Shown: positions 10,902 to 63,539 of the stretch, piece by piece
Layout of the letters: each line of letters begins with the position of its first letter
Numbering within the stretch: position 1 is the first letter of the stretch
Assembly: GCA_030035585.1 (NCBI GenBank)
Contig: CM057482.1
Location: 50,263,501-50,327,500, forward strand
From: Dugong dugon
Taxonomy: Eukaryota > Chordata > Mammalia > Sirenia > Dugongidae
Direction: 5' to 3'
Length of the DNA stretch: 64,000 bases
Made by a program: the position numbers and the translations under genes
Notes under the pieces: model-generated
Told to the model about the DNA's origin: nothing
What the model saw: the letters and a program-made list of their open reading frames with translations, nothing else
The model's database searches: none

Positions 10902-13900
10902 TTACAATAGAGGTCTCATACAATATTTGTCCTTTTGTGATTGACTTATTTCACTCAGCATAATGTCCTCCAGTTTCATCCATGTTATGAGATGGTTCAC
11001 AGATTCACTGTTGTTCTTTCTCGTTGCATAGTACTCCATTGTGTGTATGTACCATAGTTTGTGTATCCATTCATCTGTTGATGGACATCGAGGTTGTTTC
11101 CATCGTTTTGCTATTGTGAACAATGCTGCCATGAACATAGGTGTGCATATGTCTATTCGAGTGATGACTCTTATTTCTCTAGGATATATTCCTAGGAGTG
11201 GGATTGCTGGATCGAATGGTATGTCTATTTCTAGCTTTCTGAGGAAGCACCATATCATTTTCCAAAATGGTTGTATCATTTTGCATTCCCACCAGCAGTG
11301 TATAAGAGTTCCCATCTCCCCGCAGCCCCTCCAACATTTGTTATTTCCAGTATTTTTGATTCGTGCCAGTAATGCCGGGGTGAGATGGTATCTCATTGTG
11401 GTTTTAACTTGCATTTCTCTAATGGCTAGTGATCGCAAGCATTTCATCATGTGTCTGTTGGCCATTTGAATGTCTTCCTTGGTGAAGTATCTGTTCATTT
11501 CCTTTGCCCATTTTTTGATAGGATTGGTTGTCTTTTTGTTGTAGAGGTGTTGGATTTTCTTGTAGATTATGGAGATTAGACCTTTGTCTGACTTGTACTG
11601 TCCAAAAATTTTTTCCCAGTCTGTAGGTTCTCTTTTGACTCTTTTGGTGAAGTCTTTTGAAGAGCATAGATGTTTGATTTTTAGAAGATCCCAATTATCT
11701 AGTTTATCTGTTGGGTGTTTTGTGTTGATGTTTATGGTTTGTATCCTGTTAATGCCATGTATTAAGGCCTGAAGTGTTGGGCCTATATTTTCTTCTATGA
11801 ATTTTATAGTTTGAGGCTTTATATTCAGGTCTTTGATCCATTTTGAAGTAGTTTTTGTATATGGTGTGAGGTATGGGTCCTGTTTCATTTTTCTACAAAT
11901 GGATATCCAGTTTTGCCAGCACCATTTGTTAAAAAGACTGTCTTTTCCCCATTTGATTTATTTTGGGCCCTTGTCAAAGATCAGGTGACTGTAGGTGGAT
12001 GGATTTACATCTGGGTTCTCAATTCTGTTCCATTGGTCAGTGTCTCTGTTGTTGTACCAGTACCAGGCTGTTTTGAGTACTGTAGCTGTATAGTAGGTTT
12101 TCAAGTCAGGTAGTGTGAGTCCTCCAACTTTATTCTTCTTCTTCAGTAGTGCTTTACTTATTTGGGGCTTCTTCCCTTTCCATATAAAGTTAATAATTAG
12201 TTTTTCCATCTCTTTGAAGAATCAGGATTGCATTGTATTTGTAGATTGCTTTAGGTAGAATTGCCATTTTCACAATGTTGAGTCTGCCTATCCATGAGCA
12301 TGGTATGTTTTTCCATTTATGTAGATCCCTTTGGGTTTCATGCAGCAGTGTTTTGTAGTTTTCTTTGTATAGGTCTTTTACATTCCTGGTCAGATTTATT
12401 CCTAAGTATTTTATCTTTTTAGGGGCTATTGAAAATGGTATTGATTTCCTGATCTCCTTTTCAGCGTTCTCTTTACTGGTGTATAGGAATCCAACTGAAT
12501 TTTGAATGTTTATCTTGTATCCTGCTACTCTGCTGAATCTTCCTATTAGTTCCAGTAGATTTCTCGTGGAGTCTTTAGGGTTTTCTATGTATAGTATCAT
12601 ATCATCTGCAAACAGGGAGAGTTTAACTTCTTCATTACCAATTTGGATGCCATTTATTTCTTTCTCTTGCCTTACTGCTCTAGCTAGAACTTCCAGCACA
12701 ATGTTAAATAGGAGTGGTGATAAAGGGCATCCTTGTCTTGTTCCTGTTTTCAAGGGGAATGTTTTCAGCCTCTCTCCATTAAGAATGATGTTGGCTGTTG
12801 GTTTTGCATAGATGCCCTTTATTATGTTGAGAAATTTCCCTTCTATACCTATTTTATTGAGAGCTTTTATCAGGAATGGGTGTTGGACTTTGTCAAATGC
12901 CTTTTCTGCATCAATTGAGATGATCATGTGATTTTTTTCTTTCCTTTTATTTATGTGGTGGATTACGTTGATGGATTTTCTAATGTTAAACCATCCTTGC
13001 ATACCTGGTATGAATCCTACTTGGCCGTGGTGTATTATTTTTTTGATATGATACTGAATTCTATTGGCTAGAATTTTGTTCAGAATTTTTGCATCTATAT
13101 TCATGAGAGATATTGGTCTATAATTTTCTTTTTTTGTGATGTCTTTGCTTGGTTTTGGTATCAGCGTTATGCTGGCTTCATAGAATGAATTTGGAAGTGT
13201 TGCTTCCTCTTCTATGCTCTGAAATAGCTTGAGTATAACTGGTACAAGCTCTTCTGTAAATGTTTTGTAGAATTCTCCAGTGAAGCCATCTGGGCCAGGG
13301 CTTTTTTTGGTTGCGAGTTTTTTTTATTACCTTTTCAATCTCTTCTCTTGTTATGGGTCTGTTCAGATTTTCAATATCACTTTGTTGTAGTTTGGTTAGG
13401 CCGTATGTTTCTAGAAATTTATCCATTTCCTCTAGGTTTTCAAATTTGTTGGAATATAGTTTTTCATAATATTCTGTTATAATCCTTTTTATTTCGGTTG
13501 GGTGTGTTGTAATGTCCCCCATTTCATTTCTTATTTGGGATATTTGTGCCCTCTGCTGTTTTTCTTTTGTCAGTCTGGCCAGTGGTTTGTCGATTTTGTT
13601 GATTCTTTCAAAGAACCAACTTTTGGTTTTGTTGATTCTTTCTATTGTTTTTCTGTTCTCTATTTCATTTATTTCTGCTCTGATCTTTACTATTTCCTTT
13701 CTTCCGTGGTTGTAGGCTTTTTTTGTTGTTCTCTTTCTATTTGTTTGAGTTCTGTAGTTAATGTTTTGATTTTGTCCCTTTCTTCTTTTTTGATATGTGC
13801 ATCTATTGCTATAAATTGTCCTCTGAGGACTGCCTTTGCTGTGTCCCAACGGTTTTGGTATGATGTGTTTTCATTTTCATTTGATTCTAGGAATTTTTTG

Positions 13901-14707
13901 ATTCCATCTCTGATTTCTTCTATTACCCAGTGATGTGTAATCAGGGTATTATTCAGTTTCCATGCAGTTGATTTTTTTTCCTTGCTCTTTCTAGTGTTAA
14001 TTTCTACCTTGATGGCATTATAGTCAGAGAAGATACTTTGAATTATCTCAAGTTTTTGGATCTTGTTGAGGATTTCCCTGTGGCCTAAGATGTGGTCTAT
14101 TTTGGAGAATGTTCCATGTGCATTGGAAAAGAATGTGTACTTTGCAGCAGGTGTATGGAGTGTTCTATATATGTCTATGAGGTCAAGTTGGCTGATTGTG
14201 CCCTTTAGGTCTTCTGTATCTTTGCTGAGTTTCTTTTTAGTTGTTCTGTCCTTTACTGAGAGTGGTGTGCTGAAGTCTCCTACTATTATTGTGGAACTGT
14301 CAATTTCTCTTTTCAGTGCTGTTAGAGTTTTTTTTATGTATTTTGGAGCCCTGTCATTGGGTGCGTAGATGTTTATTATGGTTATGGCTTCATGATGGAT
14401 CGTCCCCTTAATCATTGTATAGTATCCTTCTTTGTCTTATGGTAGATTTTGTTTTAAAGTCTATTTTATCTGATATTAGAATTGCCACTCCTGCTCTTTT
14501 TTGATAGTTGTTAGCTTGATATATTTTTTTCCAACCTTTGATTTTTAATAAATTCACATCTTTGTTTCTAAGGTGTGTCTCTTGTAGACAGCAAATTGAT
14601 GGATCCTGTTTTCTTATCCATTCTGCCACTCTCTGTCTCTTTATGGGTGCATTGAGTCCATTTACTTTCAGTGTAATTATTGATAGATGGAAGTTTGTTG
14701 CTGTCAT
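10902..14707 (-). pseudogene. L1 ORF2 pseudogene (endonuclease and reverse transcriptase)
   Basis: The start codon is at 14705-14707. The first segment (14408-14707) begins the AP-endonuclease domain and contains the NGLNAPIKRQR and LQETHL motifs. A frameshift near 14410 leads to the rest of the endonuclease (INIYAPN; VGDFSTPL) down to 13690. Further shifts or stops fall near 13690, 13310 and 13105. The reverse transcriptase segment at 12190-13104 keeps the first catalytic aspartate in [10 protein letters not shown] and the FADD box at 12601-12612. The C-terminal segment at 10902-11888 carries the [11 protein letters not shown] region and ends PLL-stop. Normal ORF2p nicks target DNA and copies L1 RNA. 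This copy lacks one continuous frame. Confidence 0.88.
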
Positions 14708-15138
14708 TTTGTAGTGCTTTTTTTTGTGATGCTGAAGTTTTCTTTGTTCTTCTTACTCTCTTGTGCTGAGTTACTTTTGTTTGTGGATTTTGTGTTCATT
14801 TCTTTTGTTTTTGTAGGTTTTGTTTTTGTTGAGACTTTATGTTTTTCGTCTTTATTTTTATGAGTTGGTTTGTTAACTTTTTTTGTGGTTACCATGAATT
14901 TTACCCTTATCTTTATAATTTTGAAGCAGTCTACGCTTACTTGGTATCGCCTTGCCTTCCTCTCCTTTAGAAGGTTCTATACCTATGCCGTTTGTTCCCT
15001 CTTTCATTGTTTTGATGTTGTTGTCATCCTTTGATTGATTTCTCTGATTCCCTGTTGTATTTCTTTTGTTTTTGGAAAGTCCTCTGTAGTTCAGTTCCTA
15101 GAATGGTATCTGGTTCATGTGAACCTGCGTCCTAGGTC

Positions 15139-16188
15139 CTAGGTCCTGCCTGAGGGCTGAAGCTGTTTGTCCTCAGATTGAAGAACTCCCTTTAATAATT
15201 CTTGTAAGTTTGGTTTGACTTTTGCATATTCTTTTAGTTTCTGTTTATCTGGAAATGACTTAATTTCACCATCAAATTTGAATGAGAGTTTTGCAGGATA
15301 TATTATTCTTGGCTGACAATTTTTTACTTTCAAGATTTTATATATGTCATCCCATTGCCTTCTTGCCTGCATGGTTTCTGCTGAATAATCTGAGCTTAGT
15401 CTTATTGTTTCTCCTCTGTATGTGACTTCTTGTTTTTCACGAGCTGCTCTCAGAATTCTTTGTTTGTCTTTAGTTTTAGCGAGTGTGAATATGATATGTC
15501 TTGGTGATTTTCTTTTGGGGTCTCTTCTATATGGGGTTCGTTGAGCTTCTTGGATGGCCAGCTTTTCATTTTTCATGATATTGGGAAAGTTTTCTGTCAG
15601 CAGTTCGTCAGTGATCCTCTCTGTGTTTTCTGTTTTCTCCCCCTGTGCTGGTATGCCAATCGCTCGTAAGTTTTTGCTTTTAATTGTGTCCCACATAACT
15701 CTCAGGGTCTCTTCATTTTTCTTTGTTCTTTTTTCTGAGTTTTCCTGAAACAGAGTTGTATCCAAGTGTTTGTCTTCAGTTCCACTGATCCTGTCTTCCA
15801 TGGTTTCAAATCTACTTCTCAGTCCTTCTGTGACACCGTCCATTTCTGAAATCTTGTTGTTTATCTTTTGGATTTCTAATTGTTGTTTTTGTATAATTTC
15901 GAGTTGTGAATTTATTTTGGCATTTTGTTCCTGCATCATCTTTCTGAATTCTTCCAATTTTTTGTCTGTATTTTCCATAAATTTGTCTATTTTTTCCTCA
16001 TGTTTGTCAGCTTTTTGCCTCAGTTCTTGGAAAATTCCGAGTATTAGTGATTTGAGTTCCGTATCAGGTACTTCTAGTGCATTTTCTTCCACAGGAGAGT
16101 TATCTGGTGTTTTAATTTGGACGCTTATTGGAGCCATCTTGTCTTGTTTTTGTAAATGTTTTGATATTGTTTGCTGTTTTGGGGGCAT
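15139..16188 (-). CDS. L1 ORF1p, apparently intact (349 codons)
   Basis: One unbroken frame starts at ATG CCC CCA and ends at a stop before the spacer. Residues about 60-160 are heptad-rich and predicted coiled coil for trimerisation. Residues 172-250 match the RNA-recognition domain (NLRAIGIP; then LRAAREK at 246-252). Residues 255-330 match the C-terminal domain, with YPAKLSF at 297-303. The length is close to the usual 330-370 of mammalian ORF1p. The family binds L1 RNA and acts as a nucleic-acid chaperone in the cytoplasm. The 5' UTR upstream is present, so expression is possible in principle, but the element is antisense in an intron and its partner ORF2 is broken. Confidence 0.85.
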   Translation of the reverse strand: MPPKQQTISKHLQKQDKMAPISVQIKTPDNSPVEENALEVPDTELKSLILGIFQELRQKADKHEEKIDKFMENTDKKLEEFRKMMQEQNAKINSQLEIIQKQQLEIQKINNKISEMDGVTEGLRSRFETMEDRISGTEDKHLDTTLFQENSEKRTKKNEETLRVMWDTIKSKNLRAIGIPAQGEKTENTERITDELLTENFPNIMKNEKLAIQEAQRTPYRRDPKRKSPRHIIFTLAKTKDKQRILRAAREKQEVTYRGETIRLSSDYSAETMQARRQWDDIYKILKVKNCQPRIIYPAKLSFKFDGEIKSFPDKQKLKEYAKVKPNLQELLKGVLQSEDKQLQPSGRT

Positions 16189-44007: not shown

Positions 44008-44273
44008 TGCATTTTAGCAAGGTGATTCTGCAGTGCTGTGGAAAATAGGCTGAAGTGGCCAGCAGCAGAGCAGGGAGACTCCATGTAGAGTGTTGGAGTA
44101 GTTCAGGGAGAGGTGACAGCCAGGTGTGGTGGTGCGGGGATGCATTTTAGCAAGGTGATTCTGCAGTGCTGTGGAAAATAAGCTGAAGTGGCCAGCAGCA
44201 GAGCAGGGAGACTCCATGTAGAGTGTTGGAGTAGTTCAGGGAGAGGTGACAGCCAGGTGTGGTGGTGCGGGGA
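44008..44273. repeat. 133-bp tandem duplication
   Basis: Unit 1 is 44008-44140 and unit 2 is 44141-44273. I see one difference (aatagg versus aataag at 44045 and 44178), so it is a recent duplication. Confidence 0.95.
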
Positions 44274-45047
44274 TCTGGAGTTCTCCTGCATACCTCCTCA
44301 GGAGGAGGAAGTAGACAGACGGGATTTGAGAGAGGTGGAGAGAGGGAAGCTGGGCAGTGGTAGCTGGTTTCTAACAGCCCCACCTGGTTGGATAGGGAGT
44401 GGCCCTGACAGAGGGTAATGTGCCCACAGGGCAGCTGGGTGTGGGGTGGTTGATGGTGCAGCTTGGCTACATTGAGTCAGAGCTGCTGGCGAGACACCCA
44501 GCAGCAGATGTCCACTTGGCAAATGGTGTACACGGGACTGGAGGGGACTGAGAGGGGCTGAGAGAGGGAGTTTTAGAAGCGAACTGGGAAGGAGCAAGGG
44601 AGGGGTTGAGATCTCCTGTGATGGGTGGTGTGCGGAGGGGAGAAGGGAAAAAGGGTAGAGGGAATCTGCAAGGAGCAGCCCTGGAGATCAAGGTGGGAAA
44701 CCAGGGGCAGCTGAGGGAGGAGGTTGCTCTGGAAAGGCAGGAGAGGGCATTAAAGTCGGCCAGTAAGGGCTGAAGGGGGCCCTCAAGACTCAGGGACCCA
44801 GAGGCCCCTGGTGACCAGGGCATAGGAGTCCTGGGAGCGGTGGATGCAGATGGAGGCAGGACCCAACTGAAGGGGAAGGGGCACAGAAGGCTGAAAGGAG
44901 ACAGTGTTACAGGGGTGCTGGTCCCTGCTGACCTCTTGCAGGGCCACTGCATCTGTTTGGGGCCACTTGGTTGGCGGGGGACTCCCTTCATGCCAGCAGC
45001 GTGGGTCAGTTGTACAGGTTCCCCACTTTCTATTTGAGGGCCTTACC
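44274..45047. other. G/A-rich unassigned sequence
   Basis: High GC and few CpGs. Long antisense open frames here come from composition. I see no exon I can defend. Confidence 0.35.
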
Positions 45048-55689: not shown

Positions 55690-57020
55690 TTGCAGTATTA
55701 GCCATCATTTGTTATGATTAACACAGTCGAATGCCTTTGCATAGTCAATAACACACAGGTAAATATCTTTCTGGTATTCTCTGCTTTCAGCCAGGATCCA
55801 TTTGACATCAGCAATGATATCCCTGGTGCCATGTCCTCTTCTGAATCCGGCTTGAATTTCTGGAAGTTCCCTATCGATATACTGCTGCAGCTGCTTTTGA
55901 ATGAGATTCAGCAAAATTTTACTGGCATGTGATATTAACGATATTGTTCGATAATTTCCACATTTGGCTGGCTCACTTTTCTTGGGAATAGGCATAAATA
56001 CGGATCTCTTCCAGTCAGTCGGCCAGCTAGCTGTCTTCCAGATTTCTTGGCATAAGACGAGTGAGCACTTCCAGTGCTGCATCTGTTTGTTGAAACATCT
56101 CAATTAGTATTCCATCAATTCTTGGAGCTTTGATTTTTGCCAAGCCTTCAGTGCAGCTTGAACTGCTTCCTTCAGTACCATTGTTCCTGATCATATGCTG
56201 CCTCCTGAAATGATTGAATGTTGACTAATTCTTCTTGGTATAGTGACTCTGTGTATACCATCTTCTTTTGATGCTTTCTCCGTCGTTTTAATATTTTCCC
56301 TGTAGAATCCTTCAGTATTGCAACTCGAGGCTTCAATCTTTTCTTCAGTTCTTTCAGCTTGAGAAATGCCAAGCATGTTCTTCCCCTTTGATTTTCTATC
56401 TCCTGGTCTTTGCACATTTCATTATAATACATTACTTTGTCTTCTCGAGCCGCCTTTTGAAATCTTCTATTCATCTCTTTTACTTCATTGTTTCTTCCTT
56501 TCGCTTTAGCTATTCGATGTTTAAGAGGAAGTTTCAGAGTCTTCTGACATCCATTTTGGTCTTTTCTTTCTTTCCTATCTTTTTTTTTTCTTCATGTGTG
56601 ATGTCCTTGATGTCATTCCACAACTCATCTAGTCTTAGTGTTCATTAGTGTTCAGGGCATCAGATCTATTCTTGAGATGGTCTCTGAATTCAGGTGGGAT
56701 ATACTCAAGGTCATACTTTGGCTCTCTTGGACTTATTCTAATTTTCTTCAGTTTCAGCTTGAACTTGCATATGAGCAATTGATAGTCTGTTCCACAGTCG
56801 ACCCCTGACCTTTTTCTGACGGATGATACTGAGCCTTTCCATCATCTCTTTCCACAGATGTAGTGAATTTGATTGCTGTGTATTTCATCTGGCGAGGTCC
56901 ATGTGTATAGTCACCACTTATGTTGGTGAAAAAAGGTATTTGCAATGAAGAAGTCGTCGATCTTGCAAAATTCTATCATGTGATCTCTGGCATCGTTTTT
57001 ATCACCAAAGCCATATTTTC
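55690..57020 (-). pseudogene. RTE/BovB-like internal fragment, antisense
   Basis: RT motifs at 55705-56103: CQEIWKTASWPTDWKRS, PIPKKSEPAKCGNYRTISLI, QAGFRRGHGTRDII and IDYAKAFDCVNHNK with its catalytic aspartate. The linker is at 56172-56474 and the endonuclease end at 56754-56945. It stops before the YADD box and lacks the endonuclease start, so both ends are missing. Confidence 0.85.
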
Positions 57021-63108: not shown

Positions 63109-63158
63109 TATTGAAAGCTCCTGACGCATCTTACCTCCTGAACCATTTGTCTTTGCAG
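63109..63158 (+). promoter_or_regulatory. Splice acceptor region of the ENTREP-like exon
   Basis: A CTGAC motif at 63121-63125 puts a branch adenosine 34 nt before the AG. It is followed by a moderately pyrimidine-rich run ending in GTCTTTGCAG. No other AG falls between 63145 and the acceptor, so the exon start is well defined. Confidence 0.65.
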
Positions 63159-63215
63159 GTGCTGCTGTCCGGACTCATTGGCGTGGTCTCCTGGAAAAGG
63201 CCTCTCTCGCTGGTG
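63159..63215 (+). CDS. ENTREP2: Internal coding exon, ENTREP/FAM189 family, probably ENTREP2 (FAM189A1)
   Basis: The exon is 57 nt and phase 0 gives 19 codons, VLLSGLIGVVSWKRPLSLV. Upstream lie a branch-point-like CTGAC with its A at 63124, a pyrimidine-rich stretch ending TTTGCAG (AG 63157-63158), and downstream the strong donor GTAAGT at 63216-63221. Its length divisible by three fits a phase 0-0 cassette. The peptide is the end of a hydrophobic helix followed by the SWKRP basic turn that I recall from the ENTREP (endosomal transmembrane epsin interactor, formerly FAM189) tetraspan proteins, which act at endosomes and bind WW/HECT-type ubiquitin ligases such as ITCH through C-terminal PPxY motifs. 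Choice of paralog is inference: more than 63 kb of upstream intron suits ENTREP2 better than the compact ENTREP1 or ENTREP3. No other exon of the gene is visible here. Confidence 0.65.
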
Positions 63216-63539
63216 GTAAGTTGCTCTGCGTTTCCAGCATGGCGCGCGCAGCGAGGCTCCCCTGCAGAGGCCTGAGACCCTTAGAGGCGAAAGGAAGGAG
63301 AATCCTGGCGTCTTCACAGAATGTGGCATACAGACCTTGAGAAAAACGAATCCAGTGTTGATGAAAGAACCACTGTGTGTACTCTAGATCCCACTTCTGA
63401 GAGTATGCCTTGGATATTTTTCTAAGCTGTCCGGGTGTTGTCCTCTGTTTTGTTTTAGGTGCCCTCCTATAAGACATACCCTGAGCAAATACATTTTAAA
63501 AGGTAGATCCAAACCTTGTCTCTAGGCGTTAAAACCTAT
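63216..63539 (+). other. Start of the downstream intron, no repeat recognised
   Basis: It begins with the consensus donor GTAAGT. A short GC-rich patch with CpGs (63238-63260) follows, then ordinary sequence. I see no second exon or repeat here. Confidence 0.5.

Follow-up and report, generated by a model that had tools for sequence, protein, structure and literature searches.

A 57-nt open interval close to the end of a 64,000-nt stretch of dugong DNA (contig C25, CM057482.1; the whole stretch is hereafter the window) is bounded by splice-like signals on both sides. Is this interval a genuine coding exon and, if so, to which gene does it belong and how is it spliced? The original prediction, made from the letters alone, had proposed a cassette exon of an ENTREP/FAM189 family gene, probably ENTREP2, with a branch-point candidate, an acceptor, a 19-codon frame and a donor. 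On re-reading the window, the exon letters, the coordinates, the acceptor, the frame and the donor all turned out to be exact. The features are given below, where C13 and C3 are the contigs that carry the paralogous exons.

Window 63159..63215, plus strand: 57-nt internal coding exon, phase 0-0, VLLSGLIGVVSWKRPLSLV, read directly and by homology
C25:50326659-50326715: place of the same 57-nt exon in the genome
Window 63139..63158, plus strand: 3' splice site tgaaccatttgtctttgcag, ending tttgcag; the C13 paralog has the same boundary
Window 63216..63221, plus strand: 5' splice site gtaagt; compare gtatgt in the C13 paralog and gtaggt in C3
Window 63121..63125, plus strand: branch-point candidate CTGAC with its A at 63124, by consensus only

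The exon consists of 19 open codons in phase 0-0, and the frame survives its skipping. The donor agrees with MAG/GTRAGT at 7 of 9 positions, and the pyrimidine tract is middling (11 of the 17 positions between -20 and -4). The A of the predicted branch-point candidate lies 35 nt 5' of the exon; CTGAC is present, though as one of three fitting yTnAy words within 60 nt of the exon (A at 63110, 63124, and 63133). A minus-strand frame had also been described opposite the exon; in fact three overlap it, measuring 49, 91, and 106 aa from stop to stop. The weight that such signals can bear was judged from a census of both window strands, which collected every loose acceptor followed within 30-250 nt by GTRAGT with an open phase 0-0 frame. 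The census gave 12 rows, six on each strand, representing 7 distinct intervals in the window, with the exon at 63159-63215 among them. Since the window holds 7 distinct in-frame candidates, splice anatomy by itself is no proof of an exon; the splice pattern is not beyond chance.

Homology provides a far more discriminating criterion. A search of the whole assembly (3.158 Gb, 196 contigs), for which the exon peptide was extended by one residue at either end, returned two places, one in the window and the other at C13:78211327-78211389 (62% of 21 residues, E 0.185). The C13 copy also measures 57 nt in the same phase, is preceded by cag and runs into the donor gtatgt. The E value is modest when taken alone; the rest of the case is carried by the common length, phase, and boundaries. 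The C25 and C13 exons are identical at 35 of 57 nucleotides and 11 of 19 residues, with 11, 17, and 7 of 19 identities at codon positions 1, 2, and 3, respectively; in the 100-nt flanks, 30 and 34 positions are identical. In gapless BLOSUM62 comparison with the C13 paralog peptide the exon peptide scores 67, and the runner-up among the 49,888 open (overlapping) 19-codon frames of both window strands scores 30. Shuffling the peptide 100,000 times never gave 67; the largest value was 55. On these comparisons, the homology of the exon to its C13 paralog is well beyond chance.

A third copy is found on C3, where only the last residues, WKRPFTLV, can be read at the donor gtaggt, the preceding sequence being N. 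The ENTREP/FAM189 exon type (57 nt, phase 0-0, ending in WKRPxxL[VL]) is hence seen whole on C25 and C13, and by its tail on C3. SWKRP had been put forward as the family signature: the WKRP part stands, while the S part is better left off, since C25 has S at that place and C13 has T. On C3, the N run takes up the greater part of the 57-nt exon of ENTREP3 together with the sequence before it.

To tell the three genes apart, we relied on the PPxY motifs of the family. In the HGNC renaming (PMC9825485), FAM189A1 became ENTREP2, FAM189A2 became ENTREP1, and FAM189B became ENTREP3. In PMC8811627, the overlapping motifs PPPYYPPEY are given for FAM189A1 as well as for FAM189B, and the motifs of FAM189A2 are PPSY and PPPY. 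A DNA pattern for PPPYYPPEY has two exact matches in the whole genome, C3:188685341 and C25:50678086, both on the plus strand, and its reversed control has none. On C25 the motif shares the strand of the window exon and is situated 351 kb downstream of it. Because PPPYYPPEY is carried by FAM189A1 and FAM189B according to PMC8811627, the C25 gene is not ENTREP1. The exons found on C3 span 188683370-188685608, compared with more than 351 kb on C25; C3 being the compact copy, C25 is taken as ENTREP2 (FAM189A1). In human, the ENTREP2 gene is very long. From the PPxY motif, the gene size and published family facts, we infer that the C13 copy is probably ENTREP1 (FAM189A2) and the C3 copy probably ENTREP3 (FAM189B). 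The putative ENTREP1 shares with C25 the 57-nt exon, its phase and splice boundaries and 11 of 19 residues, but it lies on a separate contig, reads TWKRP instead of SWKRP and has no PPPYYPPEY match on C13. The putative ENTREP3, although compact, shares WKRP at the same donor, PPPYYPPEY and a 108-nt helix exon.

A protein search of the genome with the ENTREP3 (C3) query gave 14 matches, nine of which were used (six on C3, two on C25, and one on C13, the last with E 1.06). On C25 the query matches the PPPYYPPEY exon (57%, E 1.4e-9) and the interval C25:50663501-50663608 (42% to C3, E 0.029), where the following exon is read:

C25:50663504-50663611, plus strand: 108-nt helix-4 exon between cacag and gtgagt, with length and phase as in C3

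In the exon after PPPYYPPEY on C25, 14 of 31 residues match (E 1e-5, small database). These exons would presumably be joined with the window exon in one transcript. The C25 PPPYYPPEY exon ends at a weak donor, gttcgt (C25:50678142-50678147), and the corresponding donor in C3 is gtgagg. The five other matches of the ENTREP3 query (two on C7, two on C3, and one on C19; E 0.012 to 4.6) are all interrupted by stop codons and were regarded as noise.

The gene order around the exon agrees with this assignment. Upstream on C25, at a distance of about 446 kb, lie ZU5 exons with the same orientation as the exon, the first of which matches ZO-1 (TJP1) at 52 of 54 residues; the sequence read upstream of the window amounts to 3.5 kb at TJP1. 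On the downstream side, about 109 kb from the exon and before the PPPYYPPEY exon, the plus strand holds an uninterrupted MAGE frame whose best PDB match is the NSE3 homolog/MAGE-G1, i.e., NSMCE3, a gene nested within human ENTREP2. Beyond the PPPYYPPEY exon, the minus strand carries PID-domain matches at 50734799-50735080 and 50747141-50747248, the former with two stops, as happens when a match enters an intron; these PID-domain exons probably belong to APBA2. C13 likewise has PID-domain matches (78326512-78338199), downstream of its 57-nt exon and on the other strand. APBA1 is known as a neighbour of ENTREP1. A PID-domain gene accompanies both ENTREP2 and its C13 paralog in this genome. In the published descriptions, APBA2, NDNL2, TJP1, and FAM189A1 are found together on human 15q13 (PMC6525444, PMC7217839), and APBA2, FAM189A1, and TJP1 follow one another on chicken GGA10 (PMC11050503). 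PMC11050503 also reports that expression in human is biased towards the brain. Compared by such descriptions with ENTREP2 of human (FAM189A1; 15q13.1-q13.2) and chicken, the dugong locus has the same TJP1, NSMCE3 (NDNL2), and APBA2-type neighbours, the PPPYYPPEY motif and a long gene, and no difference was found.

Taken together, the paralog exons, the PPPYYPPEY motif and the gene order back the original prediction as to both family (ENTREP) and paralog (ENTREP2). The window exon is very probably an internal exon, spliced constitutively between very long introns, of ENTREP2, which was formerly called FAM189A1. As such it would be an ordinary exon of a known gene that lies where it is expected, and its significance beyond annotation is small, except that a 57-nt exon was recognisable from reading 64 kb of raw sequence.

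Two other origins of the interval have to be weighed against ENTREP2. In C3 the 57-nt exon is followed by exons of 111 and 120 nt, the 111-nt one being present in C13 too. On C25 these two exons were found neither by protein searches of the whole genome nor by gapless scans and tblastn in 90 of the ~337 kb of the interval. A degenerate pattern for the 111-nt and 120-nt exons gave 89 forward and 86 reverse matches and is unspecific, because its reversed control outnumbers it (494 and 459); the matches listed run as far as C11 and do not bear on C25. The C3 first exon, within the ENTREP3 query, matched only C3, and a 5' exon on C25 was not found with it. For the 120-nt exon, the C25 sequence read gave one weak match (E 0.018), which was rejected for its in-frame stop and unfit splice sites. 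The two adjoining exons missing from the 90 kb read, like the frequency of splice-like in-frame intervals in the window, would suit a chance frame or a decayed pseudo-exon. This reading nevertheless carries a negligible probability in view of the score of 67 to the paralog peptide, more than any other window frame attains, the coding-shaped conservation with respect to C13, and the position of the exon within a syntenic gene. Conversely, the exon could be genuine and belong to another ENTREP paralog or to some other gene of the CD20 superfamily, which is many-membered (for PF04103, the genome has 37 listed matches). However, none of these 37 listed matches lies on C25, the two other copies found are already placed on C13 and C3, and the combination of PPPYYPPEY with TJP1, NSMCE3, and PID-domain neighbours on C25 fits ENTREP2, so that such an origin is very improbable.

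The designation as a cassette exon is not supported by the comparison between paralogs. Length, phase, and boundaries are common to the C13 paralog (C3 is readable only at the 3' end), which indicates a constitutive exon of ENTREP2. A true cassette exon, whose regulated skipping would generate an in-frame isoform with altered membrane topology, is suggested by the 57 nt in phase 0-0, with the frame kept on skipping, but phase 0-0 is also found in the 111-nt and 108-nt family exons. Symmetry is therefore a trait of the family and not of the 57-nt exon; moreover, the exon is retained in paralogs. PMC8811627 describes a FAM189A2 transcript that skips exon 5 and is devoid of the transmembrane domain; as exon 5 need not be the equivalent of the 57-nt exon, this transcript lends no support to a cassette here. 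Altogether, we consider a cassette exon unlikely. By the same token, it is unlikely that regulated skipping would give ENTREP2, and perhaps its paralogs, a second topology, in which the PPxY tail would come to lie on the other face of the membrane or the protein would be destabilised.

As a constitutive part of ENTREP2, the exon would encode a segment of a CD20-like region. The joined peptide of the C13 57-nt and 111-nt exons matches the CD20 profile PF04103 with 34.8 bits (cut-off 27.9) over profile positions 41-93, and the joined C3 protein does so with 54.7 bits. The C25 57-nt exon alone and the 108-nt exon alone gave no match to PF04103, and the exon peptide by itself had none in Pfam or PDB, as may be expected of only 19 residues. 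The MS4A/CD20 family (PF04103) has a similar helical region; MS4A proteins are not known to carry a PPxY tail. Outside the C9 cluster, two mirrored CD20-family exon sets are found ~1.7 Mb apart at C24:59232188-59246504 and C24:60952651-60961005; they are possibly due to an inverted duplication of a TMEM176-like pair or to an assembly effect.

Within the CD20-like region, the exon peptide is predicted to supply the latter half of transmembrane helix 2, and WKRP would make up a positively charged turn leading to helix 3. According to the positive-inside rule, positive charges favour the cytoplasmic side, and WKRP is likely cytoplasmic because it is positively charged. In the survey PMC4815072, FAM189A1 and FAM189B are CD20-domain four-helix proteins. 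On the other hand, PMC8811627 presents an ENTREP1 isoform as a single-pass protein with a signal sequence and an extracellular CD20-homologous part; this layout is at odds with the four-helix one, and the topology literature is divided. The ENTREP2 protein would reside in the membrane of the cell surface (plasma membrane) or of endosomes. Its tail is predicted to be cytoplasmic and to bear PPxY motifs, which would be expected to bind WW-domain HECT ubiquitin ligases by analogy with the ENTREP1-ITCH pair. Indeed, ENTREP1 activates ITCH and associates with it via its PPxY motifs (PMC8811627). Ligase binding by ENTREP2 is deduced by us, since that paper leaves ITCH binding of FAM189A1 unexamined.

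The exon had further been claimed to be the only host coding sequence in the 64 kb. Among the 24 window ORFs of at least 120 aa, 10 were scanned with Pfam at E 0.1, of which three belong to reverse-transcriptase or L1 families and seven have no match at that threshold. These 10 of 24 ORFs bear on part of the claim, and other exons as short as this one would escape such a scan. Scans of the window with Rfam (gathering scores) and for tRNAs found nothing. The window contains on the minus strand an L1 element (10902-16188) with an open 349-aa ORF1 (Transposase_22, Tnp_22_dsRBD), beside which lie broken frames, with a reverse-transcriptase match at 12190-13104. A reverse-transcriptase fragment (PF00078) at 55705-56103, also on the minus strand, presumably resembles an RTE/BovB-type element. 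At 44008-44274, a 133-bp unit is present in two tandem copies that are 99% alike, probably a recent local duplication. Finally, a short core occurs in five close copies in the window (0 expected) and is probably part of AfroSINE, which makes an afrotherian source likely. This element is specific to Afrotheria according to PMC11292518.
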